Shown piece after piece: positions 19,336 through 64,000 of a DNA stretch of 64,000 nt. The translations under genes were made by a program, and so were the position numbers. Source of the stretch: a virus. Within the stretch, counting starts at the first letter, position 1. Every line of letters begins with the position of its first letter. The stretch spans positions 1 through 64,000 of the IMG/VR virus record IMGVR_UViG_3300042563_000635; one strand, 5' to 3'. The notes beneath the pieces were generated by a model. That model did no database searches. It saw only the letters and a program-made list of their open reading frames with translations, and had not been told where the DNA came from.

Positions 19336-20814
19336 TTATGATATCACTTTAACATTGTACAATTTTTCGAATCTATCAGCATCAAGTCTGTCATTTACCA
19401 TTGGCTCTCCTCTGATATTAAGAGAGGTGTTTAACAGTATAGGGCATCCAGTCAATACATACCATTTCTCTAGGAGTTCTCTGACTCCGCTTCCATCTTT
19501 TGGCACAGTCTGGACACGACTAGTCCCGTCATGATGAACGATAGCAGGAAATAACTGAGGATGCCTGCAACGAGCGATGACTTGCATATACCTACTGTCA
19601 CTCCAATTGCGAGGCATGTCAAAATAATTGTGAACATGCTCCTCCAAAATAATGGGCGCAAATGGTCTGAATTTTTGTCTGCGTTTAATTTCATTTACAG
19701 TATCCTTTATTGTATCACCTCTGGGGTCTGCTAGCAATGACCTATTACCCAATGCACGTGGACCAAACTCTGCACGACCTGAGGCTACACCTACTATTTT
19801 AGTCTTAACTAGTTCATCAATGATACGATTACTGGGATAATTGCCTGGAATGTCGTGCCCTAAGAAAGCATCAATCCAGTTCAACTTTTTGCCATATCCT
19901 AAAGCGGCGGCACCTAAACTAGAGCCACAGTCTCCGGGATTAGGTACTATCCACATGTCATTGAAGTAATCACCTAAGTTTCTATTTGCTAAACAGTTAA
20001 GTGCGACTCCTCCACCATATACCAAGTTACGACTCTTGCCCAACATACGAGCTTTTGCCATCACTGCGTTGATTAGATATTCTGCTAATGCTTGAGCACT
20101 GGCAGCAACGTCCATTTCATTGGCACCTTCTAAAAAGTTTTCAGGGACACCAATGTGTAAATTTTCTTTGAAATCTATTTTGGTGCTATTTTCTAACAAC
20201 TTAGATTCAATGGTATTAAAATGTATAGGTTTACCGTACGCAGCCATACCCATTAGAATGTATTCTTCATCTAATGGACGTAGACCAACGTGTTGAGTCA
20301 TTGCACTATAATATAAACCAATGCTGTGTGGATATTTTTTAGTCCAAAGTTTCTTGTATTGGGCATAGCCATTTTCATCGTACCAAGCATCCCATATAGA
20401 GATACAATCTATCTCACCGATAGCATCAATTACTACAACAGTGGCATCATTGTATGGACTTGTTTGAAAGCCAGCGGCGGCATGACTCAAATGATGATTG
20501 TGTGTAACGACTTTTGGGTTGTTAAACACATTGAGAATAGATTTACCTATACGCATTTTAGCAGTGCGTAAATCTAATTTTTGTCCTGCTCTTAATTGAC
20601 GTAATGCAGTCATCCAAGGACGTTCATAATAATGAACTTCGCATTCACCAGTTAGAGTTTTGGCTGCGTCTATCGCTAGTTCAGAACATAGTTCAGCGTC
20701 ATGCTTTTTCTTGCTATAACGCTCACTATGACCCGCAAATAGAATGTTTCCATTCGAATCCACAACAGAGATACCGGCGTCATGGAAGCCGTTGCTTATT
20801 CCTACGTAGTTCAT
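19336..20814 (-). CDS. NodU/CmcH-family carbamoyltransferase
   Basis: Transfers a carbamoyl group from carbamoyl phosphate, through carbamoyl-AMP, to a hydroxyl of a sugar or similar molecule. The 492 residues include the N-terminal NHHLSHAA metal-binding motif at 106-113, GMAAYGKP near 198, GGGVALNC near 280, and the C-terminal block EFGPRALGNRSLLADPR, FRPFAP and LNTSLNIRGEPMV. Length is a little under the usual 530 to 570, but all main motifs are present. It lies in the long surface-chemistry operon, so the target is probably a glycan made there. An upstream 32-aa gene and a TATAAATA box precede it. Confidence 0.93.
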   Translation of the reverse strand: MNYVGISNGFHDAGISVVDSNGNILFAGHSERYSKKKHDAELCSELAIDAAKTLTGECEVHYYERPWMTALRQLRAGQKLDLRTAKMRIGKSILNVFNNPKVVTHNHHLSHAAAGFQTSPYNDATVVVIDAIGEIDCISIWDAWYDENGYAQYKKLWTKKYPHSIGLYYSAMTQHVGLRPLDEEYILMGMAAYGKPIHFNTIESKLLENSTKIDFKENLHIGVPENFLEGANEMDVAASAQALAEYLINAVMAKARMLGKSRNLVYGGGVALNCLANRNLGDYFNDMWIVPNPGDCGSSLGAAALGYGKKLNWIDAFLGHDIPGNYPSNRIIDELVKTKIVGVASGRAEFGPRALGNRSLLADPRGDTIKDTVNEIKRRQKFRPFAPIILEEHVHNYFDMPRNWSDSRYMQVIARCRHPQLFPAIVHHDGTSRVQTVPKDGSGVRELLEKWYVLTGCPILLNTSLNIRGEPMVNDRLDADRFEKLYNVKVIS

Positions 20815-20952: not shown

Positions 20953-22737
20953 TCAATTCCGTATAGGGCATTTTTCTAATAACAGTTTACGATTGTGTTC
21001 TACAATAGGTAACATTTGTGTATACATGTCTTTCAGTTTTGAAATGGGCATGTTGTTGATAGAATCAATCAGTTTGAATATAGCAAATAACCTAGACTCA
21101 TGATCTTCCATTGCATCATATGACTCATCCCAAAACTCACTAAAAGTTTCAAAGCCTTGTTCTTTTAAATAATGCAATGTGTGTGGTGGCCCAACCATAA
21201 TAAAAGGCTTTTTATAGAACATAGCTCTATATACTTTTTCGCTGTAGTTACTTGTAGGTTGTGCAAACCGAGATTCATTGACTACATCTAAGAATACATC
21301 AGCGTATGTTGATTTTAATCTGTCTTGGTTATCACCAAACTTTTCTTTTTTATGATCATAGATAACACCTGTCGGGAACATCTTTTTAAAGTATTTGTCA
21401 TTGATAAGAGTGTGTTCTTTCACATTCAAATCGATGTTCCACGGTGAACGTAGATTTAATTGGTTAAACCCCTTTATCATCTTTTGAAAAACTTCTGGAT
21501 TTTTTCTCAACCAATCGTGTATACTATACCAAGGTTCTACACTGACTATACTCATGTCTGCTTTAAAATACCATGTTAAGTAACTAGTATCGCTGTAGCT
21601 AGCCAAATACGCTGCCACTAATTGTCTATGCGGGGCATATCTCCAGTTCATTGATATAAACCGTTTGCTAAAATTTCCCATGAATTCATCTTCACTAGAT
21701 AAATTCTCAAATTCATTAGTGTCAAAATACTTTACAAACAAATCATCAGCTTCCAATTTCATTTTGGATAGGTAATGAGTGTAAAACTTTTCTATGTTAT
21801 AGTCACAGGTTTTCACTGTGACATTTGTTAATTTGTTTCTGTCAATGTATTCTACAATACTGTCTAATTCTACTGCCCGCATGTCATCTGTTTTCTGCAC
21901 ATGATCATAGTGGAACTCAGAATAGAAAATTAATGAATGCTTAGATCCATGCGGAGGATACATTTGTTGGTCATTCTTGCGATACGAACACAACGGCTCA
22001 TACAGATAGATTTCTAATCCATTATCATTTAAATAGGCTGTATCTTCTGCGCTGTGATTGATAGTTTCTAAATCTGGTAACTCTCTGTTGTACATATAAA
22101 TGTAGTACGGAGAATTTTTATTCATGCGCTTTTTCATTTCAGTCATTTCAGGACTGAACAATGATTCTTTCTTTGTTACTAACCCAGGAACATTATACCA
22201 ATGCACATGCTTATATACATCTTCTGAATTAATTCTAGTGCCTGTAATTTGTAGGGTGTATCTATCTTCAATCCCTATATTACTGGCTGCATGCGGAACG
22301 TCACTGTCCCACATAAAATAATCGCCGGCTACCCAATTAACTATACCTACTCCATCTACTTCTAAGTAATGGCCAGGCTTCCAATCATCTAACATTACTA
22401 AAATTCTAACTGCATTTTCATACTCTACATTGAACAATCTCATATAGGTTTGAAAATGGTCTACGTGCGTTGGCATAATTTCTAATTGTTGCATTTTGTA
22501 GAAATTATACGTCATGTTTTTAAAGTCGAATATGTTGCCAAACCTATTAACCCATTCAGGCATAGGATTACGACTATCATACATAGACCCTGAAAAACTT
22601 TTTACATAGTCATAGCCTTTAGCTTTCCATTCTTCAAGTTCAGAATCCATTAAAGGTTGTCTAACATAATCAAACTTCTTTACATCATCTGTATTCCAGA
22701 ATCTACTTATGTGTCCTCTTGTCCATTTATTTGCCAT
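20953..22737 (-). CDS. Fusion of 2OG-Fe(II) oxygenase-like and GT-B-like domains, 594 aa
   Basis: The N-terminal 170 residues look like a 2-oxoglutarate/Fe(II) dioxygenase: HVD at 91-93, a second histidine in DVPHAASN near 149, and an arginine in RYTLQITG at 159, the expected order for the iron triad and 2OG contact. The C-terminal part carries YSEKVYRAMFYKKPFIMVG and a GFETFSEFWDESYD block, the family module seen eight more times here. A hydroxylase joined to a glycosyltransferase would make and then glycosylate a hydroxyl group (inference). AAAGGAATCAC before the ATG is a good ribosome-binding site. The start overlaps the amidinotransferase end by 11 bp. Confidence 0.8.
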   Translation of the reverse strand: MANKWTRGHISRFWNTDDVKKFDYVRQPLMDSELEEWKAKGYDYVKSFSGSMYDSRNPMPEWVNRFGNIFDFKNMTYNFYKMQQLEIMPTHVDHFQTYMRLFNVEYENAVRILVMLDDWKPGHYLEVDGVGIVNWVAGDYFMWDSDVPHAASNIGIEDRYTLQITGTRINSEDVYKHVHWYNVPGLVTKKESLFSPEMTEMKKRMNKNSPYYIYMYNRELPDLETINHSAEDTAYLNDNGLEIYLYEPLCSYRKNDQQMYPPHGSKHSLIFYSEFHYDHVQKTDDMRAVELDSIVEYIDRNKLTNVTVKTCDYNIEKFYTHYLSKMKLEADDLFVKYFDTNEFENLSSEDEFMGNFSKRFISMNWRYAPHRQLVAAYLASYSDTSYLTWYFKADMSIVSVEPWYSIHDWLRKNPEVFQKMIKGFNQLNLRSPWNIDLNVKEHTLINDKYFKKMFPTGVIYDHKKEKFGDNQDRLKSTYADVFLDVVNESRFAQPTSNYSEKVYRAMFYKKPFIMVGPPHTLHYLKEQGFETFSEFWDESYDAMEDHESRLFAIFKLIDSINNMPISKLKDMYTQMLPIVEHNRKLLLEKCPIRN

Positions 22738-23713: not shown

Positions 23714-24293
23714 TAAATACTTTCATTTTTGATATATCAGGATAATCTGTGTGTGACCATTGTTTTGGGTCAGTGTCTTTAATCTGTTCGAATCTATTCA
23801 TACCTAATACTGCTGTCTCCGGGGTCATATAGTAATGGTATCCCAACATATCTATATCTTGTTCAGCCCAGAGAGTATCAGGCACACGACCATCATAACT
23901 CATTTTCTTTAGTGCAACATATTCATAGTCATGTTCTACTAAGATCATGCCGCCACGTCCAACATTCAAATGCTTTCGGTACTGAAAGCTTAGACACATA
24001 AACGTATTAGGTATGTATCCATTCTTCTTCCAATAGACAGCGGCATCGATGATGTTAGTGTTGCCTACATAGTAATAATCTTTCCAGTATTGTTGATTGA
24101 ACTGCCAATCTAAGTTCAACTTCTCAAACGTCATAGGAACGCTTAGATATGTATTAGTCGGACATGTTACGTTATCAAACTTAGTATAGCGTAATGCTAA
24201 CTCTATACCGTGTGTACAACAATCTACTGCAACTGCATACGGTGCGTTGTAGTAGTCAGCAATCAATCTTTCAAATTGCTGAACTTCTTTCAT
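23703..24293 (-). CDS. Half-length DegT/DnrJ/EryC1-type aminotransferase
   Basis: Sugar aminotransferases of this family are PLP enzymes of about 370 residues; this one has 196. Kept are the start of the fold (YNAPYAVAVDCCTHGIELAL, PTNTYLSVPMTFEKL) and the PLP-lysine segment SFQYRKHLNVGRGGMI, with Lys107 as the likely Schiff-base residue. The C-terminal small domain is mostly missing. Frame and ribosome coupling (ATGA overlap with the radical SAM gene) are intact, so it is a compact version rather than a visible frameshift. It may work only with a partner, or may have lost activity. Confidence 0.8.
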   Translation of the reverse strand: MKEVQQFERLIADYYNAPYAVAVDCCTHGIELALRYTKFDNVTCPTNTYLSVPMTFEKLNLDWQFNQQYWKDYYYVGNTNIIDAAVYWKKNGYIPNTFMCLSFQYRKHLNVGRGGMILVEHDYEYVALKKMSYDGRVPDTLWAEQDIDMLGYHYYMTPETAVLGMNRFEQIKDTDPKQWSHTDYPDISKMKVFNVK

Positions 24294-26554
24294 TCTATAT
24301 CTTTCTTACGTTTGATTGAATCTATACTAATGGTTTGTGGTTGCTTTGCAAAATCTAAAGCAAACATTGCTTCTTTTTCCGGAATAACTTCACGTGAAGT
24401 ATTAGATACAGCAACTTCAAAGTCTTTGTAATTGCCCCAGTTACCGTAGCCAATGTAATGATAGTCAAACGTAAAGTCAACGTTCTTGTTAAGTTCTGTT
24501 TCTTCATCTAACAAATCACTAAAGTCTTGACCATCACGACCTTCAGCGTCACTCCATGTAGGCTTTGCAAGTTTACGGGCTCGTAGTGCAGTGTTGCTCA
24601 TCATACGTGAATAATCTTGTGCATAGAACGGACCTTTACGACCTAGGGGCGGACGCTCACGGTCATCAAACGGATTATCAATCTGCTCAAACTTCATATC
24701 AAAGTCTGCTTCCCACTTACCGCTGTCACTAATCTTAAACTTGTACACGGCATTAAACATCCCGGGGCCAAATTGTTGACCAAATTCTTTTAAGTCAATC
24801 TCAGGATTGTATCGTATCTCTGCTTCGTATCCACCACGACATTTCCATAACATGCGCAAGAAGGGCCACATTTCATTTACTAATGCATCAGCAAAAGGAT
24901 TAATGTTTGGCTTAATAATGTTGTAATCAAACTTCTCATACTCAATCTCTCTAGCCATATCAGTATGATTGAGTTTGATTTTGTAGTGTTCTTTCTCTAA
25001 TGCATGACGCACCGGATAGCTGATAGGTACATCGGTTACTCCGCGAAAGAAGTCAGCAAACATGTGCCATGTTTTGACACGAATCATCAAGTGTGTGCCA
25101 CCGAACGTAAAGTCATTGCGTATCCAGTGACCTTGATACTTGTGCCAACTGATATTAAACTTGTGAGGGTGCTGCCCTACAATAGTCTCAGGACCCATGC
25201 CATAGCCAACACCTAAACCTGCATTGTTAATGTTGTTGTTACGCATACGCCAGAAGAATGTCATAGTGTCTGAATAGTCTTGATAGTCTTCTGTCGGGAA
25301 GCCTACGATCCAGTTAGTAGCTGCCCAGATGCCTGTCTTTTTACAGTCGATAAAGTTCTGTTCCATCTCAGCGATAGTAACACCTTTAGCCATATCATCA
25401 AGTACTTTCTGACTTCCGGATTCAACACCAAAGTTAAACATGATAGCGCCGCCGGCTGCTAAGTCTTGCAAGTACTCTAAGTCCATACGACCATCGCAAC
25501 GTGCGTATCCTGTCCACTTGACTTTCAAGTCTTTCTCTTTAAGAGCAAGGGCAAAGGCTCGTAGTTCTTTAGGGTTACCATTGATTAACGAATCGATGAA
25601 CCAGATAATATCTGTGCCTTTGTTGTAGTACAGCCATTCAACTTCTGTAATCAAGTCAACACTTTGACGCTGACGATACTTCCAAAAGTGTGTTTCTTCA
25701 CAGAATGTACATTTAGCAGTGCAACCTCTACTGATTTCACTATTAACGCCGTTAGGTAATTCGTACTGTGAAAAGTCAATGCTCTCATAGTCGGGCATAG
25801 GCAAGCCGTTGATGTTGATACGTTGATCTTCGGGCTGTGTAAGATAGCGAGGATACTCTACTTCTATCTTGTCTTCTATTTCGTCAAGCATTACTAATAG
25901 ATTCTGCTCACCTTCACCTACCACAACATAGTCATAGTACGGATGTGTTGCAAACCAACTCTTGTGTACGTTAGGTCCACCGACTGCAATCTTAATGTGA
26001 GGTGCTCTACGCTTGATTTCACGACACATCCACTTCGTAGGTTCTTCGCTAATGTAATAAACACTGAAGCCAACTACATCCGGGTTCATTTCAATGATCT
26101 TATCTACTGCTGGTTCTAGTATCTCAGGGCCCAACAATGGATGAATATCATTCATGTAAGTATCGCCCAGCCAATGCCATGAACTAGACGGATCCCATAG
26201 TCTAAATGGAATACGCTGTTTAGGCCACCAGTCTTTCTTGAATGCGTTATACGCTTTAACATTCAAATCAATAATGTGTGTTTCATAGCCCGAACTCTTG
26301 GCAACACCGCTTAATCGTGCAAGACTAAACGGAGGCATATAAGGGCTCCATTCGGGGCACAGTACAAGAACTAACTTAGTGTTTCTTGTCTTGTAGTCAA
26401 CATATACAGGGGTTAAGTTCTTTTGAACTGTTGCTTTGGCATAAGGAGCAATTGCTTCCATCATACTACGATGGCGCGCATCAGCTATATCCTCGGTGGG
26501 ACGCTCCTTAGGCTTTAATTCGTCAACAGCCAATGATCTTAAGGTAAAATCCAA
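24290..26554 (-). CDS. B12-binding-like radical SAM protein, 754 aa
   Basis: A TTG start is used: AGGAG lies 6 to 8 bases upstream and no ATG is available before residue 31. Residues 60-230 form a B12-binding-like Rossmann domain (LCPEWSPYMPPFSLARL, VVGFSVYYIS, IAVGGPNVH, VVGEGE). The radical SAM core follows with CTAKCTFC at about 277-284, the cluster ligands for cleaving S-adenosylmethionine. A C-terminal part of about 250 residues is family-specific. Such enzymes do radical methylations or rearrangements. It heads the run of aminotransferase, amidinotransferase, hydroxylase and carbamoyltransferase genes. The substrate is unknown. Confidence 0.88.
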   Translation of the reverse strand: MDFTLRSLAVDELKPKERPTEDIADARHRSMMEAIAPYAKATVQKNLTPVYVDYKTRNTKLVLVLCPEWSPYMPPFSLARLSGVAKSSGYETHIIDLNVKAYNAFKKDWWPKQRIPFRLWDPSSSWHWLGDTYMNDIHPLLGPEILEPAVDKIIEMNPDVVGFSVYYISEEPTKWMCREIKRRAPHIKIAVGGPNVHKSWFATHPYYDYVVVGEGEQNLLVMLDEIEDKIEVEYPRYLTQPEDQRININGLPMPDYESIDFSQYELPNGVNSEISRGCTAKCTFCEETHFWKYRQRQSVDLITEVEWLYYNKGTDIIWFIDSLINGNPKELRAFALALKEKDLKVKWTGYARCDGRMDLEYLQDLAAGGAIMFNFGVESGSQKVLDDMAKGVTIAEMEQNFIDCKKTGIWAATNWIVGFPTEDYQDYSDTMTFFWRMRNNNINNAGLGVGYGMGPETIVGQHPHKFNISWHKYQGHWIRNDFTFGGTHLMIRVKTWHMFADFFRGVTDVPISYPVRHALEKEHYKIKLNHTDMAREIEYEKFDYNIIKPNINPFADALVNEMWPFLRMLWKCRGGYEAEIRYNPEIDLKEFGQQFGPGMFNAVYKFKISDSGKWEADFDMKFEQIDNPFDDRERPPLGRKGPFYAQDYSRMMSNTALRARKLAKPTWSDAEGRDGQDFSDLLDEETELNKNVDFTFDYHYIGYGNWGNYKDFEVAVSNTSREVIPEKEAMFALDFAKQPQTISIDSIKRKKDIE

Positions 26555-26614: not shown

Positions 26615-26629
26615 ATTATACAGTATAAT
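26615..26629. promoter_or_regulatory. 15-bp palindrome over the end of the fusion gene
   Basis: ATTATAC-A-GTATAAT is a perfect inverted repeat covering the stop codon of the dehydrogenase fusion, just upstream of the possible promoter. It could bind a dimeric regulator, or it may be chance in AT-rich sequence. Confidence 0.3.
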
Positions 26630-29600
26630 GGTATATGCCACTATTGGGGTTATCTGCCATTGGGCAAAAACCCTTAAACTTCAACCCACCGCTTGTAGCC
26701 CACGCAATGTAATGTTCTTGGTTGGCGCCGGTAGTGATGAAAATATCGGCACCTGGATTTAGGTACTTTTTAATATTTTCATAGAAATCCTGCAGTGCTT
26801 CATACCCATCATCAACTATTAACCTACATGTATTATCTAAGCAGTTTAAGTGTTCAAGCGATTCAATAAAAGCTTGCCTGTCACCACTATGCGGGGGATT
26901 TGCTATAACTAAGTCAAATTTTTCCGCAGAAGGTATTTGCATTATGTTATCACATACATATGCACTAACTCGGTCAGTCATTTTGTTAGCAGATGCATTA
27001 GATAAACAAGACTTTATAGAAGGTCCGTGTATATCAACAAATGCTATAGTATCAACTTTGTTTTTGTCTAGGAGATCATAGCCTAATGGGCCCACTCCTG
27101 AACACCAATCTAACGCACGTCCGTAATGTTCTTTTCCGATTCGTTCAATCAATGAATATAACTCATCTTTGATTTCAAAGCCGCCGCCATCCATGTGCGT
27201 AGGATATTCTAGCACGAAACCATTTTCAAAACTGCGAGTTTGTTTAGACCAATCTAATTGATCGGGATTTGATTCGGCCGGCATCGGAAAAGACCTAACC
27301 GAATCAAGATTCAAATTGGGTGCAGGCATATCCTGTACAGGTATGATTACAGACAACGGTTCTGGCTTAATAATAGGCTGATCAATTGGATATGTTATTG
27401 TTTGCACTTTTTGAGCTACGTGAACAACTGGCTTAGTAATAACAACATTATTAAACAATTGTTGATAATTTTTAGTGATTGCAAAATCCTTATTAGTATG
27501 GAAATGTTGTTGATTGAATTCAACAATTTCTTTTATACCAGCTTGCCATACTTCCCAATCGCCACCTGTAAAGTTATTTAGTCGTTTAATTTCTTTAACA
27601 ACTGCTTCAAAACGCAGGTCATCATTTTGAATGTCATCATATGATTCATCAATGTATGGACTAAATGTTTTATACCCTTGTTTACGTAATTCACGCAAGC
27701 AATGTGGTCTAGCCATTAATACGAACGGGTGATTTAATGCAAAGCAACGATATGTTTTTTCAGTTAAAAACAAGCTATCTTCAACAAAAGGACGATGCGC
27801 TTGATCCGGACGATTCTTATCATAGAACAATGTTTCAGTGATTACACTGAAATAACTGTCTTTATAGTATTGCAAATCATCGGGTTGAATGTCCACTGGA
27901 TTGTGTCTATGTTCTGTGATATTCAATCGCAATGGAAATAGTTCTGCATTTTGTTTAATTAATGGAAACTTTTGAGTACGTAATAACGGAATCTTTTCTT
28001 TAAAGTCAGTGTCACCCTCAAAGCTGTACCAGGCTTTATCAACTAAATTTTCATGCAACATTCTTTCAAGTAGCATTAATCTATGCTCACGATTTAGTTT
28101 ATTAAAACATGTGAATATTTTACCCCTAAATCTAATATCATACCCACCAATGTATTCATATCCTTGAGCATATGTCGTAGTAATGTAGTTGAAGAAATGA
28201 CAATTTAACAATGAAACACGTTTGTTCCAACCATTCTTATCAATTAATTTTTCATATACTTTATCAGCATCAACGACACCAGTGACTACAATGATGTCTT
28301 CTTCCGAAATAGTATCATCAACAATGTTAGCAATACGTTGTATCTTACTTTGAACATGTGGCATAAATGCTTCAGTAGCCGCAAAGAACAAGAACTTTGA
28401 CTTACCATTCTTATGAGCTTCACGCATTTCCTTAACAATATCTTCTGTAGGTCTACGTACAAACATTGTTTCAAAATTAATTGTAGCGTCAATCAAATGA
28501 ATAGCATTTTCATAGTCCTTAATGTCTGGAAACATTTCAAACACTTGACGTAACATTGTTTCAGTTGTAGTAGAAGGAACACGGTAATTGTGCTTTGTTC
28601 TAGTATCACCGTAATGTATAATTTCACCACTATGTTGATGACTAGTCATCATGCGCCATGGATCAATAATCACAGCGCCCGGATCTTTAAACTTTAAATT
28701 CTCAACCCAACTCTCCCAATATCCAATTAGATACACATGAGTCCAGTCTTCACGCATGTCATGATCCTCAGTATTTGGATCGTAGTAGTTTAAGTTACCA
28801 CCATGTTTTTCAATGTAGTACCCCACTAACATACTTGCACTACCGTTTGTATAGGGGACACATGGCTTGTATGCTTTACCGATGATTGTTACATTACGGC
28901 CATTCTTTAAGCAACGCAAGGCCATACGTTCAGCTTGTACTTCACGTGCGGTCATGATTGAATCAAACAAGTCATAACCCAAATCTAATCTGTCTGCTAG
29001 ATAACGTAATGCAATGTTATCCCGTGGGTGACACGCGCCGGCGTCTCCTAGTCCGGCTTTCATGTATGCTGGACCCATGATGCGATGTGTGCTCTTAGCC
29101 AATGCTTGTGTAACTACATCTACGTTGATGTTGCCGTTAGTCTCTGCAACATCCTGAACCATGTTAACTAATGCTAGTTTGGTACTGATGAATGTATTGT
29201 AGAAAATCTTAATTGACTCAGCTTCGTCCCATGTGCCAACTTCATAGCGTGGATCATTCTGCATAAACACTTTATAGAAGTCAATTAGTTCACTAGCATC
29301 ACCTGTTAGGCTACCATCTTCTGTACCGATAATTACCATTTCTGGATTTACCATGTCCCATTTTACGGTACCCATAGCAATAAGGTAAGGGTTGTAAATG
29401 AATCTTGCGTTAGTGATACAAGGCTCTAGGATGTTTCGAACTGTTCCGGGTAGCACTGTACTGATAAGAACAACTAATTGACTTCTAGTAACGTGTCTAT
29501 TGACCTCTGTAAGAATATCAGTAACGATAGTGTAATCAAAATCTTTGTTGGGGAGATGACTTGTTGGAGTTTCTCCCCCGTAAATTGGATTGTGTGGAGT

Positions 29601-29780
29601 AGGAGCTGCTATAAAAATAAAGTCTCTATCCTTAACTGCTTCTTCAATTGTATCCTTCATAGGGAACATTGGAAGTCTAGGCTCTACGTCATATCCTACA
29701 ACGTCATACCCTGCGTCAGCCATAACCTCTGCACAGTCTTGACCCAATTTACCTACACCAATCATTGCTACTTTTTTCAT
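26616..29780 (-). CDS. Three-domain fusion: UDP-glucose-dehydrogenase-like, GT-B-like, methyltransferase
   Basis: 1054 residues. About 1-400: nucleotide-sugar 6-dehydrogenase, with NAD site MIGVGKLGQD, STVLPGT near 108, and GDAGACHPRD with the catalytic Cys250 (usual CxPKD, here with arginine). About 420-790: the family module (FLTEKTYRCFALNHPFVLMA, GYKTFSPYIDESYDDI). About 860-1054: class I SAM-dependent methyltransferase with ALDWCSGVGPLGYD and ANPPHSG, like small-molecule or N-methyltransferases. One chain could oxidise a sugar nucleotide, transfer it and methylate the product (inference). GAGGT precedes the ATG. An AATAAATA box is 23 bp upstream. Confidence 0.88.
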   Translation of the reverse strand: MKKVAMIGVGKLGQDCAEVMADAGYDVVGYDVEPRLPMFPMKDTIEEAVKDRDFIFIAAPTPHNPIYGGETPTSHLPNKDFDYTIVTDILTEVNRHVTRSQLVVLISTVLPGTVRNILEPCITNARFIYNPYLIAMGTVKWDMVNPEMVIIGTEDGSLTGDASELIDFYKVFMQNDPRYEVGTWDEAESIKIFYNTFISTKLALVNMVQDVAETNGNINVDVVTQALAKSTHRIMGPAYMKAGLGDAGACHPRDNIALRYLADRLDLGYDLFDSIMTAREVQAERMALRCLKNGRNVTIIGKAYKPCVPYTNGSASMLVGYYIEKHGGNLNYYDPNTEDHDMREDWTHVYLIGYWESWVENLKFKDPGAVIIDPWRMMTSHQHSGEIIHYGDTRTKHNYRVPSTTTETMLRQVFEMFPDIKDYENAIHLIDATINFETMFVRRPTEDIVKEMREAHKNGKSKFLFFAATEAFMPHVQSKIQRIANIVDDTISEEDIIVVTGVVDADKVYEKLIDKNGWNKRVSLLNCHFFNYITTTYAQGYEYIGGYDIRFRGKIFTCFNKLNREHRLMLLERMLHENLVDKAWYSFEGDTDFKEKIPLLRTQKFPLIKQNAELFPLRLNITEHRHNPVDIQPDDLQYYKDSYFSVITETLFYDKNRPDQAHRPFVEDSLFLTEKTYRCFALNHPFVLMARPHCLRELRKQGYKTFSPYIDESYDDIQNDDLRFEAVVKEIKRLNNFTGGDWEVWQAGIKEIVEFNQQHFHTNKDFAITKNYQQLFNNVVITKPVVHVAQKVQTITYPIDQPIIKPEPLSVIIPVQDMPAPNLNLDSVRSFPMPAESNPDQLDWSKQTRSFENGFVLEYPTHMDGGGFEIKDELYSLIERIGKEHYGRALDWCSGVGPLGYDLLDKNKVDTIAFVDIHGPSIKSCLSNASANKMTDRVSAYVCDNIMQIPSAEKFDLVIANPPHSGDRQAFIESLEHLNCLDNTCRLIVDDGYEALQDFYENIKKYLNPGADIFITTGANQEHYIAWATSGGLKFKGFCPMADNPNSGIYHYTV

Positions 29781-29836: not shown

Positions 29837-30901
29837 TTACAATTTACCTAATAGGTCAACGTGTTCTAACTCTATAGAGGGCAACATTTTCTTTAAATAT
29901 TCTATTTCATTAACAGATTGTTGCATGTAATGATTGTAATTATGTGTTACCATTTCTCTTATTTCATCTACGTTCTTGTCTAAATTATCTATAAAGTGTT
30001 TGACACTTTTTGCTGTCCAATTTAATATCAGATCAATCTCAGTGGCCGGCGGTAGAAAAAACTTGTTAAATGTCTTGTACCCCAATTGGGTTAGATGTTC
30101 ATCAATTCCTATATCCCCTACAATTATAAAGGGATGGTGATTGATCATTGCTCTATATAGTTTTTCTGTCAAGTAAGGCATATCGATTTTGCCCATTGGA
30201 TTAGGTGTTAATTCAACTGAATTTTCACTGACAATGCTTAGACAAGTATTTTTATAATATTTAAGGTTAGTTGGAAAACCAGTATATTCAAATACATTGG
30301 TATCATAACATTTTGAAATATCAATGTCCATACTAGGCTTTTGTATGTCTATTAAAAACTTGATAATATACTGTTCATCCTGTAGATAATGTATGTCTGC
30401 ATTTTTTATAGCATTTATATTGTTTGGTGTTGGGGGAAAGTATAATGAGTAGTCTAAGTACTCTAATAGATTATTAGCGTAGAAGTAATACATCAAACCT
30501 ATCCTATGGCGTCTAACAGGTTTCCCTATTAAAAATAATGCTTTTTTACTTTCTGGATACCATTTATTTCTATGTCTAGTTACACTGTGCTTATACGTAA
30601 TGTAAGCCCAAGTGTTTATATAATAGACATTTTTTCTATCTTTAGTCAATTCTCTTGCGGTATCATGCAATAGATAATGATGTGGTATGTTTATCGATTG
30701 TGCGTAAGCTCCCGCGTTATCTAATATTGAATCAAAAAAACTTTTGTCAAATGTGCTTAATTTTTCAACTATAGCAGTAAACATTATCTCATCGCCGGGT
30801 TCATAATATAACGTTACGGTATTATTAATTTCCTGAACTAAGCCTTCAAGGCTGACGGTTTTTCCTAAGTAAGGAGCAATGCGTACATAAAGGTATTTCA
30901 T
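29837..30901 (-). CDS. GT-B-like protein of the T/SEK(T) family, 354 aa
   Basis: The most divergent member. The shared block is YLTEKLYRAMINHHPFIIVGD near residue 245 followed by LGYKTFNKFFLPPATEID; the usual aspartate-rich DESYD/DYSFD ending is lost. The YLTEKL wording is especially close to the donor-sugar motif of GT10-type enzymes. The N-terminal half has no family I can name. The start overlaps the SGNH-like gene's stop by 4 bp. Its own end is followed by about 56 bp holding a late-type box. Probable cytoplasmic glycosyltransferase (inference). Confidence 0.72.
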   Translation of the reverse strand: MKYLYVRIAPYLGKTVSLEGLVQEINNTVTLYYEPGDEIMFTAIVEKLSTFDKSFFDSILDNAGAYAQSINIPHHYLLHDTARELTKDRKNVYYINTWAYITYKHSVTRHRNKWYPESKKALFLIGKPVRRHRIGLMYYFYANNLLEYLDYSLYFPPTPNNINAIKNADIHYLQDEQYIIKFLIDIQKPSMDIDISKCYDTNVFEYTGFPTNLKYYKNTCLSIVSENSVELTPNPMGKIDMPYLTEKLYRAMINHHPFIIVGDIGIDEHLTQLGYKTFNKFFLPPATEIDLILNWTAKSVKHFIDNLDKNVDEIREMVTHNYNHYMQQSVNEIEYLKKMLPSIELEHVDLLGKL

Positions 30902-31689
30902 AGTAAAAATGTGAAATCTTTACTGATTAAACATTGTAATGGGGTTCCAAACTTTTGTTGGATATCTTGTTCAGTTTTGCACTGAGTTAACAAGTGTGTA
31001 GCTTCTAAGGCATACTCATGTGTTGTTTTACTCAATTCTAACCCACATGCTTTTAAGTAATCATAATATAATGTTGGTTTAGAGTGAGGATCCCTTTGCA
31101 TATGGCCGGCAAACGTTATATATGGCACTGGATCTGTAGACCAGTTTTGTCCTAAAAAGTCATATAATGATATTGGCATGTCATCATACTCTTTTTGATA
31201 TAATGAAGACAAGGTGTTTGTTACATGTTCGTTGTCAACACTACCATATTCAGTATACTTAAATGGAATACTTTTCAACAATATTGTACCACAGTTACTT
31301 TGTGCTAATGACTTATTAACTAAGTTAATTATAGCATGGTCACGAATCATATAGCCTGCAGGATCACAATAATCTTTTACCCAACTCTTAGGGTATTCTG
31401 AATTCCATACATTACCTTGAGTAAACCAACCGGTATTAATCCATCTATCTTCTCTGCTGAATGTAGACCACATTATCATTACTAGATCAGTATCATTGAA
31501 TTTATATTTGGCATTGGCTTCGGCAACTCTAGCCATTATACCCATATTACCTAACCCTGCAATAGCATAATTATAATACTCTGCTTTTGTTTCTACTGCT
31601 ATTAAGTCTGCCCAAGTTTGCCACTTGTAGAATGTAAAACTACATCCAAATGCAAATATACGCTTATATTTCTTTAAATCTATGTTCAT
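30898..31689 (-). CDS. SGNH/GDSL-like hydrolase, 263 aa
   Basis: Near the start is FAFGCSFTF, with Ser17 in the position of the SGNH nucleophile, then AGLGNMG near 45, which fits the block II glycine and the block III asparagine. The final His of the triad is not obvious; candidates lie in FAGHMQRDPHSKP near 193-205. Such enzymes remove or move acyl groups, often O-acetyl groups on polysaccharides, and that would fit the glycan cluster (inference). The start overlaps the previous gene by 26 bp. No signal peptide, so it acts in the cytoplasm. Confidence 0.7.
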   Translation of the reverse strand: MNIDLKKYKRIFAFGCSFTFYKWQTWADLIAVETKAEYYNYAIAGLGNMGIMARVAEANAKYKFNDTDLVMIMWSTFSREDRWINTGWFTQGNVWNSEYPKSWVKDYCDPAGYMIRDHAIINLVNKSLAQSNCGTILLKSIPFKYTEYGSVDNEHVTNTLSSLYQKEYDDMPISLYDFLGQNWSTDPVPYITFAGHMQRDPHSKPTLYYDYLKACGLELSKTTHEYALEATHLLTQCKTEQDIQQKFGTPLQCLISKDFTFLL

Positions 31690-33709
31690 TGTTTCTAATA
31701 AAGTTGTTTATGTCATCTGAATAATCTGGATACTTATTGATAACAACATGATTAACTAAGTCTTGCCACACTGTGGGAATCAATGATGATTGTGTAGCTA
31801 GTTTCAAAGCTATTTTCTTATTGTACACACACTTTTCAAATACACTATTATATAGTTCTTTTAACTGCCCCGGAGTTTTATCAGTGTAACGATTGATATT
31901 CTGTGCTATTAAGTCATACCTAATATCAATGTCAGGTTCACTATCAAACGTATAATCAAACAATTCATCGTATAATTTAAATCCTAATTCTTGTAATTGT
32001 TTATGGAAACCCATACAACCCGCTACTAAAAACGGCTTATTAAAGAACAACGGCATTGCTGTTTTTTCTGAAAGACCAAATAATATTTCACTAGTTTCTG
32101 GAACCAATTGCATGAAAGACATTGCATATTCTAATGGTAATCTTTCTTGACTTACAAATCTATCTAACTGGTCACGCAACATAATCTCTTGGTTCCAATA
32201 CTTAAATGGATAAGATTCAGTAGTCTCACGCCAGATTACTACACCCTTGTCAATTACATCATGTTTAGCTAACATATCCATCATTATAGCTCTATGAATC
32301 TTAGGTGCTTTATTCATGCTAATAAAAGGATATTTGATAGGAATATTTCTAGACACATGCACATCCTCTACATCTAAACATATACTATTATTCATTTGAT
32401 AGTTAGGACTTACTAAAAGTCTACTCAATGCCATTGTAAGCCAAAAGGTTGGCCAATAGTAAATTTTCACGTAATCAGATATAGATATTGTATTATGTTT
32501 ATTAATACCGGTTATAAGATGAAACTCAATGTTATAAAGTTTAGCAAACTCTACTAGCTCATTAAACAATGTTATAGATCCGGCGGCTTTATTGTACTCA
32601 AACTCTATTGCACTGTTGAATATTATCTTGGATATTCGTCCCCTGTCGTTTATAAAATTGTTGATTTTTTCTACTAGTTGACTGTCCCATATATCAAAAT
32701 GTATAATCTTATGACGGTTAACCATTAAATGACACATGTGAACATATCTACCATCTGTTGCATTTTGTTTTGTTACTAAGCCGTTGTTTATTGCGTATAT
32801 ACGGTCTTTGATAATCTCGGGAATAGTGTTAATGTCTTTGAATATACGCATATAATTATTATAATTGCGTTCAGCTTTGGCTTTAATTCTTTGATATAAC
32901 TCAGTAGTATTCTGTTCTGATATACGTTTAACGTTTACTGCAATAGCCTCAGCACGTTTAAGCATGTCGGGCTCACTGTCGAAACTGTAATCTATAATCT
33001 CATCATATAACTCAAAACCCATGTTTACTAACTTTTGATGAAAATACTGATCAGCCATTATGACAAACGGCTTTTTAAACAATATAGGTAAGCAAGTCTT
33101 CTCAGTAATAAAAGGCACTGTTGTAGTAGCCTCACCTATTACATGTAAAAATGATTGATGATATTCATCAGGAATCAAAAATGAATCTAGTTTAGTTTCA
33201 AAGTCGTCTGATATTAATCTGACCTCATCATTATAGTGTTTGAATTGATATAAGCTAGGATTTCTTGCAGGAAATCTATTCCAGGTTACAATACCTTTAT
33301 CTAGTAAACCCTGACCAGTTAACTCATCTACTAACATACAACGATGAATCCAATTCTTATTATTCAAACAAATATAAGGATATTTAAAATCGGTATATGT
33401 TCTATTGAAATCTAACTGATTGCTACATTGCACCGCCCAATGAATCCAGTATGTGTGCCAGTGGATTATTTCTATATTGTTAAAATATTTTGTTTGTTCA
33501 ACATAGTAATCGCTAATAAATGCACCAACTGTAACTATTAGTTTAATATTGTTATCATTCAATAGGTTAGCCATGTCAATGGTTAACTCACGTGAATGCC
33601 ATTCAGTTTCACATAGTAATATAATTATGTTTGGTTTCTCATTAGAAACAACGTTGATAAAATCATCTAGTGTGGGGTCGTCTAACTGACTTACATAAAC
33701 TGTTTTCAT
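31664..33709 (-). CDS. Two-module GT-B-like protein of the T/SEK(T) family, 681 aa
   Basis: Two full-length family units in one chain. Unit 1 (about 1-330): NIIILLCETEWHSRE, NKNWIHRC, FITEKTCLPILFKKPFVIMAD and GFELYDEIIDYSFDSEPD. Unit 2 (about 335-681): MNKAPKIHRA, LSEKTAMPLFFNKPFLVAG and GFKLYDELFDYTFDSEPD. The layout points to gene duplication and in-frame fusion, and the two halves could act as a built-in dimer or as two transferases. Overlaps the upstream radical SAM gene by 4 bp (ATGA). No transmembrane segment. Confidence 0.8.
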   Translation of the reverse strand: MKTVYVSQLDDPTLDDFINVVSNEKPNIIILLCETEWHSRELTIDMANLLNDNNIKLIVTVGAFISDYYVEQTKYFNNIEIIHWHTYWIHWAVQCSNQLDFNRTYTDFKYPYICLNNKNWIHRCMLVDELTGQGLLDKGIVTWNRFPARNPSLYQFKHYNDEVRLISDDFETKLDSFLIPDEYHQSFLHVIGEATTTVPFITEKTCLPILFKKPFVIMADQYFHQKLVNMGFELYDEIIDYSFDSEPDMLKRAEAIAVNVKRISEQNTTELYQRIKAKAERNYNNYMRIFKDINTIPEIIKDRIYAINNGLVTKQNATDGRYVHMCHLMVNRHKIIHFDIWDSQLVEKINNFINDRGRISKIIFNSAIEFEYNKAAGSITLFNELVEFAKLYNIEFHLITGINKHNTISISDYVKIYYWPTFWLTMALSRLLVSPNYQMNNSICLDVEDVHVSRNIPIKYPFISMNKAPKIHRAIMMDMLAKHDVIDKGVVIWRETTESYPFKYWNQEIMLRDQLDRFVSQERLPLEYAMSFMQLVPETSEILFGLSEKTAMPLFFNKPFLVAGCMGFHKQLQELGFKLYDELFDYTFDSEPDIDIRYDLIAQNINRYTDKTPGQLKELYNSVFEKCVYNKKIALKLATQSSLIPTVWQDLVNHVVINKYPDYSDDINNFIRNNEHRFKEI

Positions 33710-35634
33710 TTTCTAGTAACCCAAGCCTTACCAAAGTTTCTACGTCTTGCAAAGAATATCTGTTCACAAAATTTCTCTAATGTCATTGTCTTATCCTCAG
33801 GGAAATCAAACTCATAACTAGCAGGAGATTCTAATTCATTTTGATTCTGTAGATAGCCGAATATATCATACTTAAAGTCAATAACCTTAGGATATGTTCC
33901 GCATTGTGTATAGTCAACCAAATAATTACGTTGGATAAGCATTAACTCATCGTGTAAGTCTTTGGGTAATGGATACTCTTTTAGTAAGAAACTTTCAATA
34001 ATGTCAAAAATATGCTTATGTTTATTATCACTGTGTAACATGATAATAGTACTATGTATTAAGTTCCATCCGTGAATGTGCATACCCATTAATAATGGGT
34101 GATCTATCATTCCCTTCTCACCCCATAACCCATAATGTTTACCAATACGTTGAATCTCACTGTTAACCCATGGATCTTTTTCTATATATTGATAAAGTTT
34201 TTCATAGAAATCTCTATATTCAACACCGTGCAATTTAAACAATACACGACTGATATAGTTTGTCATGCCGTTAATGTGAAATGTGTTTTGATACCAACTG
34301 TGTAATTGCGCTTGAAGCATCTTGTCAAGTGGTAAGTCACGTGTGCTTACCACAATTTCAACACCTTCACGTAGATTCTTTTCGTTGTTAGAGCCTACTA
34401 AGTAATCGTAAACAACTTGACCTTGTAGCTTATACATCTTACGCTGAGTCAGATTCATTTCAGCGTTTTCTAATAGTTGTGCTTGATATACAGTGATACC
34501 AGTGTGATTGCCTGCTTTGTACAATCTATAGAAGTTTTCTTTCCAACTTGCTAATGTTTCACCCGGCAGTCCTAGAATCAACTCTGTGTACAACGGGATG
34601 TTAGCCTCTTCACACATAACAAACACTTCACCAATCTTGTTTGTATCTAAGTTGGTTCGTTTGATGATCTCTAATGTGTTCTCGTCCATTGTCTGCACAG
34701 ACAAGTTTAAGCCGATCTTGGCTCCACCTTCATAGATTAATTTCTTAACGATATCAACAACTTCTTTCTTTTGATTCTTCGCCCAGGCAATTGTATATGC
34801 ACGTGGCATGCCGTATTCTTTTTGTACAGCAATTAATTTATCAGCAATTAAACTATCACGCTCTGCAAAGATACCAAAATTCGCATCGGTAAAGCTAATA
34901 AAATCAAATTGATTCTGACCCATCCACTCTAATTCAGCAAATACTCTTTCTAATTCGAATATCTTTACTTTATTGTATGTCAAGCTACCCCAATCACAGA
35001 AGGTACATGCATAGGGGCATCCTCTGTTTGTTTCGATAGTTCCGTTCCAACGAATCTCAGGGTGCTTCTTCATTAGTTTATCGAATATACCCGTCAGATA
35101 AGGACTAGGAATCGTATCTAAGTCATCAATACGAACGGTATCACCTGTACTAACTGCTACCCCGTTGTCATTAACTAGCATACCTTTAATAGATTTATAG
35201 TCAGGGGTGTCTTTTAAATGTTCTTCTAATACTGCACGGAATGTTTTTTCACCCTCAAGCTTAACGCATATATCTAAGAAAGGGTATTGTTCAAAGATAT
35301 CTTCTTTTTCGATAGGGAATTCGGGGCCGCCACCAATAATGAATAAATTAGGATTAGCTAATTTTAATGCTTTCCCCAATTCTTTAGTATAACTACGATT
35401 CCAAATATATGTACTGAAGCCAATTACATCACTGTCTTTTAATATCTCTACTGCATCTTCTATGTCTTCGCGGCGCCAAATAAATTCCCCCAATTCATAG
35501 TTTTCATTAATTGTAGGGAACTGATTTACGTAGCTCCACAGGATTCCCGGACTATACGGCAAGTAATATGCGTTTAATTCCTTAGGACCCTGTTGAAAGT
35601 TAGGACTGACAAAGCTGATTATCTTTTTAGACAT
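33706..35634 (-). CDS. B12-binding-like radical SAM protein, 642 aa
   Basis: Residues 1-180 look like a B12-binding domain (SDVIGFSTYIWN, NLFIIGGGPEFP, VKLEGEKTF). The radical SAM cluster CPYACTFC is at 206-213, with FTDANFGIF and ELILGLPGET further on as in B12-type radical SAM methylases. The C-terminal 220 residues are helical and unassigned. It differs clearly from the 754-aa radical SAM protein at 24290-26554, so the two are not recent duplicates. Overlaps the downstream two-module gene by 4 bp and the upstream SGNH-like gene by 8 bp. The substrate is unknown. Confidence 0.88.
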   Translation of the reverse strand: MSKKIISFVSPNFQQGPKELNAYYLPYSPGILWSYVNQFPTINENYELGEFIWRREDIEDAVEILKDSDVIGFSTYIWNRSYTKELGKALKLANPNLFIIGGGPEFPIEKEDIFEQYPFLDICVKLEGEKTFRAVLEEHLKDTPDYKSIKGMLVNDNGVAVSTGDTVRIDDLDTIPSPYLTGIFDKLMKKHPEIRWNGTIETNRGCPYACTFCDWGSLTYNKVKIFELERVFAELEWMGQNQFDFISFTDANFGIFAERDSLIADKLIAVQKEYGMPRAYTIAWAKNQKKEVVDIVKKLIYEGGAKIGLNLSVQTMDENTLEIIKRTNLDTNKIGEVFVMCEEANIPLYTELILGLPGETLASWKENFYRLYKAGNHTGITVYQAQLLENAEMNLTQRKMYKLQGQVVYDYLVGSNNEKNLREGVEIVVSTRDLPLDKMLQAQLHSWYQNTFHINGMTNYISRVLFKLHGVEYRDFYEKLYQYIEKDPWVNSEIQRIGKHYGLWGEKGMIDHPLLMGMHIHGWNLIHSTIIMLHSDNKHKHIFDIIESFLLKEYPLPKDLHDELMLIQRNYLVDYTQCGTYPKVIDFKYDIFGYLQNQNELESPASYEFDFPEDKTMTLEKFCEQIFFARRRNFGKAWVTRK

Positions 35635-36503: not shown

Positions 36504-37583
36504 TTATATACCTAATCTTGGGCGTAAATGCCATTCTTTATTAGTGATGAAATGCAAATGACCCTTGTTATTATACACTTCTCCTAATAATTCATAATCA
36601 TTTTCTGTAGTTATGAATTTTAAACACTCTGGAATTAATTTATCTTTGTCTTGTAATGTTTTAAACATCTGCAAAGCCATGTTCCTATTGTGTTTTAATT
36701 TTGATTTAATTTGTTCATACATCTTAAACTTTGCACTTGGATCACTATTAAATAGTGCTTTTAATCTTAGCAAGTTGTCTATTATGCCCTGTATGCGTTC
36801 CTCGACAGTGAGCATACTGTCAAAGTTGTAGTCAAACAATTCGTCATACATTTCGATACCGTATTCTGAATACAACCACTTATGATAATTCATACTAGAT
36901 ATCACTAAGTAAGGCTTTAATGCGCCCCAGGGTTTAGCCGTTTTTTCAGTGGGCACAAAGAAATCATTTCTATAGTCAGTTTCTGCTACTATATCAATAA
37001 AGCCAGTGAAATAGCTTTTTGGTAGACGTCCAGCACTGAAAGTTTGATTAGAGTTTAATTGAAAATCAGGTTCGTCTGACAATACTGAACCATCATGATA
37101 CTTCCAATCGTACATAGGATTAGTGCGCAAGTCTGGATATCTGTATGTGACGATACCATCATTGATTAAGTCATTGTTTACTAGTAAATCTACAAACAAT
37201 TTACGTTCATACTTTGGATTGTTGTTATATGAAGTGAATAGCTTATTGCTTGTTTCAAACACGTTTACGTCACCGTAATCAATTATAGTGCCCTCAACAC
37301 ATGCTAAATTACCATATGCACTGCCTAACGTATTGACCCCGTGTATATAGGGTCTTATCTCTTTGTCGGGGCCGGCCCACAATACGTACATGTATTTCTT
37401 ATTTTCTATGAGCCAATTTTCGATTAGGTTGAACAAATTATCAAAAATTAGTTCTACATTAATTTCGCCCAATGATATTACGGTAATATAATCAGGATTT
37501 TTTAATTTTATATCCTTAATGATATCAGTATACCATTCAACTCCCGTCTCAGGGAATACTTGTAACACATATACGCGGGTCAT
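36504..37583 (-). CDS. GT-B-like protein of the T/SEK(T) family, 359 aa
   Basis: Begins MTRVYVLQVFPETGVEWY. The N-terminal half resembles the family layout (YVLWAGPD, NPKYERKLFVDLLVNNDLINDGIVTYRY). The module is FVPTEKTAKPWGALKPYLVIS with IEMYDELFDYNFD after it. The GALKP segment is a variant of the usual GKP. It sits between a GDP-mannose-epimerase-like gene and an SGNH-like gene, 2 bp from one and overlapping the other by 4 bp. Putative glycosyltransferase. Confidence 0.75.
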   Translation of the reverse strand: MTRVYVLQVFPETGVEWYTDIIKDIKLKNPDYITVISLGEINVELIFDNLFNLIENWLIENKKYMYVLWAGPDKEIRPYIHGVNTLGSAYGNLACVEGTIIDYGDVNVFETSNKLFTSYNNNPKYERKLFVDLLVNNDLINDGIVTYRYPDLRTNPMYDWKYHDGSVLSDEPDFQLNSNQTFSAGRLPKSYFTGFIDIVAETDYRNDFFVPTEKTAKPWGALKPYLVISSMNYHKWLYSEYGIEMYDELFDYNFDSMLTVEERIQGIIDNLLRLKALFNSDPSAKFKMYEQIKSKLKHNRNMALQMFKTLQDKDKLIPECLKFITTENDYELLGEVYNNKGHLHFITNKEWHLRPRLGI

Positions 37584-38560
37584 TTATCATCGGTTCCGCA
37601 TTCTATCTGTTCAACAATCCATTTATATGTTTTATGTATACCTACTTCTAACGATTCTGTAGGAGCCCAATTTAATTTTTCACGTATCAATGTGTTATCA
37701 CTAGTACGACCCATAACTCCCATTGGCCCGGGTATATTTTTAATATGAACTTTTTTACCAACAAGATCGGCTATTAGATAGACTAGATTGTTAATTGATA
37801 TCATTCGAGAGCTACCTAAGTTGACTGGCTCTGAAAAATCACTTTCCATCAAACGCTGTATGCCATCTAAACATTCATCAATGAATAAAAAGCTACGAGT
37901 TTGAGTGCCCGGACCCCATATCTCTATTGTTCCGCCAGGCTCGACAGTTGCTACTTTTCTGCAAAGAGCCGCAGGTGCTTTCTCTTTGCCATTATTCCAA
38001 GATCCGTAGGGACCAAATACATTGTGAAAACGTGCAATACGTACTTCTATGCCATAGTTCTTAGCATACGTCAAATACAATCGCTCACTGAATAACTTTT
38101 CCCAACCGTACTCACTGTCAGGGTTTGCAGGGTATGCGCTTGATTCTGACAACACTGGGTTGTCAGGGTCTAGTTGATTGTGCTCTGGGTACATACATGC
38201 GCTTGAACTATAGAATATTTTAGCGTTTTTATTCTTTCTACGAACATTATCTAATATGTTTAAATTAATCATTACACTGTTATGCATGATATCAGCATCG
38301 TGTTCGCCGGTAAAGATGTAGCCGGCGCCGCCCATGTCGGCAGCTAATTGATATATTTCATCGTAACTAATTGTATGAAATAAGCTCTCTACATTCTGTT
38401 GATCTCTTAAATCTACCACATAGAATTCATCAGCCTGCGACTTACTGTATAAGGGTTCTTTTAAGTCCACACCTACTACGTAGTGACCAGCTTTCTTTAA
38501 TCTCTCTACTAAGTGAGAGCCTATAAATCCACCCGCTCCACATACTAAAATCTTTTTCAT
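37580..38560 (-). CDS. NAD-dependent epimerase, GDP-mannose 3,5-epimerase-like
   Basis: 326 residues of the extended short-chain dehydrogenase type. GAGGFIG at 8-14 binds NAD; SSSACMYPE near 118 and YGWEK at 151-155 give the catalytic Ser/Cys, Tyr and Lys; LAADMGGAGYIFTG near 72 and FHNVFGPYGSWNNGKEKAP near 178 closely match GDP-D-mannose 3,5-epimerase, which makes GDP-L-galactose/gulose. Related enzymes make other sugars, so substrate is not certain. It indicates that the phage builds its own nucleotide sugar for the nearby transferases. Overlaps its downstream neighbour by 4 bp. Confidence 0.9.
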   Translation of the reverse strand: MKKILVCGAGGFIGSHLVERLKKAGHYVVGVDLKEPLYSKSQADEFYVVDLRDQQNVESLFHTISYDEIYQLAADMGGAGYIFTGEHDADIMHNSVMINLNILDNVRRKNKNAKIFYSSSACMYPEHNQLDPDNPVLSESSAYPANPDSEYGWEKLFSERLYLTYAKNYGIEVRIARFHNVFGPYGSWNNGKEKAPAALCRKVATVEPGGTIEIWGPGTQTRSFLFIDECLDGIQRLMESDFSEPVNLGSSRMISINNLVYLIADLVGKKVHIKNIPGPMGVMGRTSDNTLIREKLNWAPTESLEVGIHKTYKWIVEQIECGTDDK

Positions 38561-38561
38561 A

Positions 38562-39902
38562 TTAATCCTTAGGTTCTTCTCTTAAGCGTTTAGAGGCTTC
38601 TACACGTATCTTATCTGCTACCGTTTTAGAAGTGTTAGTAGTCAATATCTTAAAGTTATGATCTACTATAGGCTTTACCTTACGCTTAAAGTCTAGTATT
38701 TGCTCTGGTGTCCAGCTAGCAATTTCTTTACAAACTTTCACAATCTCAAACAGTCTACGCTTAGGATCTTCGATTTCGTCATATGATTCATCCCAGAAGT
38801 CATCAAACGTTTGAAATCCAAACTCACGTAATGTACGCAATGCACCTGCAGTTCCTACCATAATGAATGGATGTTTTTCTTTTGCAGGCTTCCATGTCTT
38901 TTCTGTAGCAGTTAGTTCAGTCCAATCAAAATTTGTTTCAGTTATGATACTAACTAAGCTGTTCTGATAAAAAGGTCTAGCGGCTGCATCAAAGTCACCG
39001 CACATTCTTTGTATCTCTGTCTCTCCGTCAATTACTAACGGTAACTTAGCCATGAAGTTTTCAACATCTTTGTTACCTATTTGTAGCATAGGGTTTGAAT
39101 ATAAGTCAACTGTAGTCTTAAAATGAACACTGTTCATCTCAGGGTCAGTCAAGTTCATGCTATAATAGCTACGGTCAACGATGCCGGCTTTGTCTAATGC
39201 TAGTGCAAGATGTGTACGGTGAGGTCTAAATCTACGATTCCAGCATAAGAATACTTTTTCAGGCACAGTGTCAGTGTCGTACACTGGTTCCGGAGTGTTC
39301 TGTAACTGTAATGATAATGCATGTTGTGATATAGGGAAAGGTATCATTATCATACGATGCATTGGATCATCGGGGATTCCATTTCGATCACACCAGTTGT
39401 TGTATAATTGTTCTGCGTTCATACAACCAGTAATGTATATGACCTTGCCCATTGGAATTCTATTGTAATGTCCGAAGTAGGCATGCATTGCACGTAATTG
39501 TCCATCTTGTACCCATGCTTCGGGTGCATAGTCAATTAAGAAGAAGCCATTACGATCTCTGACTTGATGTGTTATGTGATTAGGAGTATGACTGAACTCT
39601 AACAAACCACCACCATTCAAGAAATAGTTCTGAAACTGTATACGCCAAGCTAATGTATATGGGTATATAAACGGATCATGTTCTTCTAAGCCAAATGTAG
39701 AAGATAACGGGTGATTACCGTTGTGCATAAACACTCGCCAATATATATCATCTGCCCAAAAGAAATTACTACCATGTGCGTCGGTGCTTTCACCCACACT
39801 AGCGTAACTCATAATGTTAGGCAACTCTGTGTTCACCATTGGACCTCTTGGTCCAATCCAGCTGTAAACAATTTTTAACGGATCATTTTCATTTAACTGC
39901 AT
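38562..39902 (-). CDS. GT-B-like protein of the T/SEK(T) family, 446 aa
   Basis: The longest single-module member. The N-terminal 250 residues include FLCWNRRFRPHRTHLALAL near 217, comparable with the NRPxxHR segment of other members. The module is LTATEKTWKPAKEKHPFIMVG near 345 followed by GFQTFDDFWDESYDEIEDPKRR. This DESYD subtype is shared with the oxygenase fusion and the dehydrogenase fusion, so these three form one branch. It overlaps the radical SAM gene upstream by 14 bp. Probable glycosyltransferase, donor unknown. Confidence 0.76.
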   Translation of the reverse strand: MQLNENDPLKIVYSWIGPRGPMVNTELPNIMSYASVGESTDAHGSNFFWADDIYWRVFMHNGNHPLSSTFGLEEHDPFIYPYTLAWRIQFQNYFLNGGGLLEFSHTPNHITHQVRDRNGFFLIDYAPEAWVQDGQLRAMHAYFGHYNRIPMGKVIYITGCMNAEQLYNNWCDRNGIPDDPMHRMIMIPFPISQHALSLQLQNTPEPVYDTDTVPEKVFLCWNRRFRPHRTHLALALDKAGIVDRSYYSMNLTDPEMNSVHFKTTVDLYSNPMLQIGNKDVENFMAKLPLVIDGETEIQRMCGDFDAAARPFYQNSLVSIITETNFDWTELTATEKTWKPAKEKHPFIMVGTAGALRTLREFGFQTFDDFWDESYDEIEDPKRRLFEIVKVCKEIASWTPEQILDFKRKVKPIVDHNFKILTTNTSKTVADKIRVEASKRLREEPKD

Positions 39903-42137: not shown

Positions 42138-42140
42138 TGA

Positions 42141-63992: not shown

Positions 63993-64000
63993 GTTCTTGT

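Follow-up and report, generated by a model that had tools for sequence, protein, structure and literature searches.

A single gene in a viral DNA stretch of 64,000 nucleotides (the window, part of a 98,897-base IMG/VR virus record) encodes three enzyme-like domains in one chain, and this three-part fusion, confirmed here as genuine, recurs in phage contigs. It consists of a divergent nucleotide-sugar dehydrogenase (DH), a middle domain predicted to be a glycosyltransferase (MID) and a methyltransferase (MT; Table 1). The protein is probably a phage multi-enzyme of a conserved glycan-building cluster, in which oxidation, transfer and methylation would be carried out by the same polypeptide. A preliminary description of the region had proposed domains of these broad kinds in one stop-free frame of 1054 residues, with Cys250 and an NPPH motif in place and domain borders near 28520 and 27260 (residues 421 and 841). 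All of this was borne out, the borders lying near those computed here and the frame within a glycan-type gene cluster, and the full-length structure model contains three confident regions and a low-pLDDT linker preceding MT.

Table 1. Features of the fusion gene and of the surrounding cluster, in window coordinates.
Feature	Position	Strand	Basis or remark
Three-domain fusion ORF, DH-MID-MT, 1054 aa	26616..29780	-	ATG to stop, no internal stops
Domain 1 (DH), residues 1-395, divergent UDP-glucose/GDP-mannose dehydrogenase	28596..29780	-	phrog_9148, PF03721, PF00984
Domain 2 (MID), residues 411-778, GT-B-fold glycosyltransferase, unnamed family	27447..28550	-	predicted fold
Linker, residues 779-850	27231..27446	-	disordered; pLDDT <50 at 785-836
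Domain 3 (MT), residues 851-1054, class I SAM methyltransferase, PF05175 type	26619..27230	-	Pfam and PDB match
Pro131-Tyr132, site of Pro-Glu in known NDP-sugar dehydrogenases (human Glu161)	29385..29390	-	alignments
Cys250, catalytic Cys equivalent	29031..29033	-	invariant in 99/99 relatives
Glu674-Lys675 in F-L-T-E-K, resembling GT10 [TS]-E-K	27756..27761	-	alignment; near-invariant/invariant in family
NPPH motif, residues 961-964	26889..26900	-	invariant in eight aligned MT domains
MID-family paralogue	8893..9963	-	MID-family search
MID-family paralogue	9926..10984	-	MID-family search
Nol-like carbamoyltransferase	19336..20814	-	
Protein with C-terminal MID-family domain	20953..22737	-	MID-family search
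B12-binding radical SAM protein	24290..26554	-	directly downstream in each fused form checked
MID-family paralogue, just upstream of fusion	29837..30901	-	MID-family search
Protein with two MID-family copies	31664..33709	-	MID-family search
Second B12-binding radical SAM protein, KedN5-like	33706..35634	-	profile matches, gene order
MID-family paralogue	36504..37583	-	MID-family search
NAD-dependent nucleotide-sugar epimerase	37580..38560	-	
MID-family paralogue, nearly full length	38562..39902	-	MID-family search

Recurrence of the fusion and its precedents

HMMs for DH, MID and MT run across all fetched viral loci recovered six distinct DH-MID-MT proteins (those of the window and of loci L001, L016, L183, L186 and L187). 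The five from outside the window lie on different IMG/VR contigs and measure 1027-1053 aa, and none of the five is interrupted by a stop. Two-part forms were found in the same survey (DH-MID, n = 8; MID-MT, n = 3; DH-MT, n = 3), together with many single-domain proteins, and each pairwise joint is seen among viral loci at one same site in the gene order. Between the window and L183, the whole frame had a dN/dS of 0.06 and the linker one of 0.23; selection on the fusion frame is purifying along its full length, across both joints. Although unfused versions do exist as neighbouring genes, there is virtually no chance that an assembly or frameshift error glued separate genes together, since the fusion stands on six different contigs and in-frame purifying selection spans both joints.

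When the DH domains are arranged in a tree, all six triple fusions fall within one supported group of 11 rows (98/97), the remainder of which comprises three rows with DH separate from MID-MT, one with DH separate from MID and one DH-MID. The fusion-state labels need 13 changes on this tree, so the joints were made or broken repeatedly.

The preliminary description knew of no such three-part enzyme. A search of the open-access literature for a UGDH-GT-MT fusion found no report, and to that extent the claim stands for the trio; it has to be tempered by two-part fusions, which are fairly common, by the occurrence of the three-part form on six contigs and by the presence of one two-part form in UniProt. 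That entry, A0A6J5TB28, is a 788-aa protein of an uncultured Caudovirales phage; the MID model aligns with it over 355 columns (Foldseek E 1.3e-16), and its only annotation is an N-terminal UDP-glucose/GDP-mannose dehydrogenase, the MID part being unannotated. Given this match and this annotation, it is most likely a DH-MID protein; unlike the window fusion, it is too short for a methyltransferase domain.

A virus fusing glycosyltransferase and methyltransferase domains for one glycan is already exemplified by the chlorovirus PBCV-1 protein A064R (638 aa), which has two glycosyltransferase domains and a methyltransferase domain; one of the former represents a new family, of which Pithovirus has a partial homologue annotated as GT10 (PMC9614988). 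Likened by description, A064R resembles the window fusion in being virus-encoded, in having three domains and in joining a C-terminal SAM methyltransferase to a glycosyltransferase. However, it lacks a dehydrogenase and belongs to a eukaryotic virus, and its activities are proven, whereas those of the fusion are predicted from sequence and model.

Family assignments of the three domains

From its profile matches, DH is placed in the NDP-sugar dehydrogenase (UGDH/GMD) superfamily as a divergent relative. It matches phrog_9148 (UDP-glucose dehydrogenase; E 1.6e-95) and lies above the curated cut-offs of PF03721 (E 2.1e-15; 57.2 bits against 27) and PF00984 (E 4.9e-15; 55.9 bits against 25.4), and its best PDB matches are UDP-glucose 6-dehydrogenases. 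The likeness extends to the NAD glycine motif, invariant or nearly so, and to the catalytic Cys, Asp, Lys, Asn and Thr. DH differs from known NDP-sugar dehydrogenases in active-site positions considered below, in its C-terminal part, where the UDP-binding domain PF03720 is weak (14.4 bits against a cut-off of 30, E 0.052), and in being joined to two further enzymes. Its TIGR03026 score falls under the cut-off.

The middle domain represents a large uncharacterised phage family and is the core of the fusion protein. As a sequence family it has no match in Pfam, PHROGs or PDB sequences, and three tblastn queries found no match in the cultured phage records searched; its close matches in BFVD consist almost entirely of 'uncharacterized' proteins from uncultured phages. 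The window's record holds ten matches in eight genes, about nine copies, and a 64-row alignment of the family has positions at which R, E, K, D and N never vary. Twelve weak MID-family loci (L091-L102) lie on bacterial or archaeal contigs, including those of Methylobacterium and Caulobacter isolates.

The predicted structure of MID (pLDDT 93.8) indicates a GT-B glycosyltransferase fold of two Rossmann-like domains, and its best Foldseek matches in the PDB are GT-B glycosyltransferases (E about 2e-3, probability 0.98). The top structural match is 2nzx (Z 11.2, rmsd 4.0, 252 aligned) of the GT10 alpha-1,3-fucosyltransferases, with which MID shares the GT-B fold and a [TS]-E-K motif. However, the top rows of VIA-align 2 were tied, T4 beta-glucosyltransferase (Z 10.8) and GtfC (Z 10.7) lying within one Z unit of 2nzx, and hhalign of MID against 15 cyanobacterial GT10 proteins gave a probability of 0.5%, aligned at the SEK motif. 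PF00852 (GT10) was not among the listed Pfam matches of the 64 MID members; a scan for it across 99 genomes from a single bacterial order had no match, but no control gave a signal either. As the GT10 profile comparison was not significant, MID is placed in no known GT family. What had been called a transferase-like family module can thus be specified as a GT-B glycosyltransferase by predicted fold, but not assigned to a known GT family by profile. A Radical_SAM match at residues 441-516 was under its cut-off and was taken as chance because the matched stretch contains no cysteine.

MT matches PF05175 above the cut-off (E 4.8e-11; 43 bits against 23), and its NPPH fits the NPP[YFH] motif of that class; nearest to it in the PDB is 9l4q (E 1.7e-28), which also carries NPPH and for which no paper was found in the open-access literature. 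The sequence family includes the PF05175 'MTS' methyltransferases, 9l4q and PSSM2_187 of cyanophage P-SSM2, all of which, unlike MT, are stand-alone proteins. The window sequence alone retrieved one locus of MT relatives, and alignment A4 as query retrieved 80. Two MT-family genes in tandem were seen at L201:5610-7012 and L216:4002-5404.

A conserved cluster around the fusion

Fused and unfused forms share one gene order: an epimerase, a KedN5-like B12-radical SAM protein, MID paralogues and DH/MID/MT, followed by a second B12-radical SAM protein, a DegT-like fragment, a MID-family protein and a carbamoyltransferase. The B12-binding radical SAM protein immediately downstream of the fusion is 72-99% identical within the close clade. 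In the window, the cluster sits between virion structural genes and a porin gene. Pelagimyophage genomes have a make-up comparable to this setting: their host-recognition region carries glycosyltransferases, and they also encode UDP-glucose 6-dehydrogenase and radical SAM genes (PMC7029224). The conserved gene order, the structural-gene setting and the likeness to pelagimyophages together suggest a role in a virion or host-surface glycan.

Several other features of these regions were recorded. The DegT/DnrJ aminotransferase piece (196 aa, 23703-24293, minus strand) has relatives that keep its length (195-200 aa), and the porin is of Gram-negative type (300 aa, 7013-7915, minus strand; Porin_4 E 1.7e-41). 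At the edge of the cluster, a run of four radical SAM genes, of which two have SPASM domains, occupies 39889-44782 (minus strand), and a frame of 4324 aa or more for a virion structural protein (51018-63998, minus strand; phrog_10938) reaches the window end. In isolated cyanophages and a pelagiphage (L081, L083 and L267), the gene for the sugar dehydrogenase is adjacent or close to a NadE-like gene.

Proposed function and alternatives

In the mechanism we favour, the N-terminal domain would use NAD and Cys250 to oxidise a sugar nucleotide or a closely related compound; the middle domain would move a sugar from a nucleotide donor onto an acceptor, and the C-terminal domain would methylate the product or an intermediate with SAM. 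Within a single chain, these steps, whether consecutive or related, could stay together. Most likely, the target would be a carbohydrate on the virion or the infected-cell surface, which the neighbouring B12-radical-SAM enzymes and carbamoyltransferase may alter further. The analysis demonstrates the chain, its domains with their families or predicted fold, the conservation of catalytic residues, the recurrence and the gene order; a pathway shared by all three domains, along with which sugar is handled, how the steps follow one another and what accepts the sugar, is inferred. Such a multi-enzyme is consistent with the family or fold support for each domain, the six triple fusions with all pairwise joints in a conserved gene order, the whole-frame purifying selection and the presence of a MID-family domain on the same fetched stretch in 88 of 102 DH proteins, as well as with pelagimyophage gene content (PMC7029224) and the A064R precedent (PMC9614988). 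Weighing against it are the departures of DH from its family in the Pro-Glu pair and the UDP-binding domain, the glycosyltransferase assignment by predicted fold where profiles match no known family, and the genomic surroundings of MT relatives.

The preliminary description had gone further, proposing that the protein makes, adds and caps a uronate-type sugar. The three kinds of enzyme in one chain stand, as does a real methyltransferase domain, but the uronate step, the use of its product by the transferase and the capping of that sugar by the methyltransferase are conjectural. A protein that produces a uronic acid nucleotide and, after transferring the uronate, caps it by methylation to an ether or ester is possible, if doubtful. 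Cys250, Asp254, Lys191, Asn195 and Thr108 are unvaried in 99 of 99 DH relatives, which together with the UDP-glucose 6-dehydrogenases as best PDB matches would fit such a product. However, the Pro-Glu pair of the family (SpUGDH Pro140-Glu141, human Glu161), reported invariant in 229 sequences (PMC4794789), is replaced by Pro-Tyr in 98 of the 99 relatives, Tyr132 aligning to position 161 of human UGDH, and the second Glu of known enzymes is Met. The human E161Q structure has been solved with a thiohemiacetal intermediate. His251, beside Cys250 and likewise invariant among the 99, might take over water activation, but the active-site comparison as a whole does not appear to support the uronate interpretation.

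It is also conceivable, though unlikely, that the fusion mainly equalises the amounts of neighbouring cluster enzymes while its three domains act on separate substrates. The same genes also occur side by side unfused, the joints vary within the clade, and MT relatives are found in unrelated contexts: 39 of the 48 distinct relatives that stand alone lack a DH or MID gene within 6 kb, and the two examined adjoin ribonucleotide reductase genes, so the substrate of MT may not be a sugar. On the other hand, every pairwise joint is found again at a single place in the gene order, a pattern that usually marks linked steps.

Two further possibilities start from the altered DH active site and are both very improbable. 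In the first, DH would have lost normal turnover and would serve as a sugar-nucleotide binding or scaffold domain, as the lost Pro-Glu pair and the weak UDP-binding domain might suggest; the (near-)invariance of the catalytic Cys, Asp, Lys and Asn and of the NAD glycine motif argues against this, as does the strong purifying selection on DH (dN/dS about 0.06). In the second, DH without the Glu that helps to complete turnover in known enzymes would hold the oxidised sugar on Cys250 or pass it on in another form, giving a relay of oxidation, transfer and methylation that, if true, would yield a sugar derivative outside the ordinary uronate pathways.

In summary, what is new here is the addition of a dehydrogenase to virus glycosyltransferase-methyltransferase fusions, already known from A064R (PMC9614988). 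The analysis reveals a large phage family of predicted glycosyltransferases for which neither Pfam nor PHROGs has a model and to which none of the cultured-phage records searched gave a match, although this one record carries about nine copies. The altered active site of DH offers a direct test case for the role of the conserved Glu, and the fusion forms indicate which steps probably go together in a conserved phage glycan cluster that includes two B12-radical-SAM enzymes.
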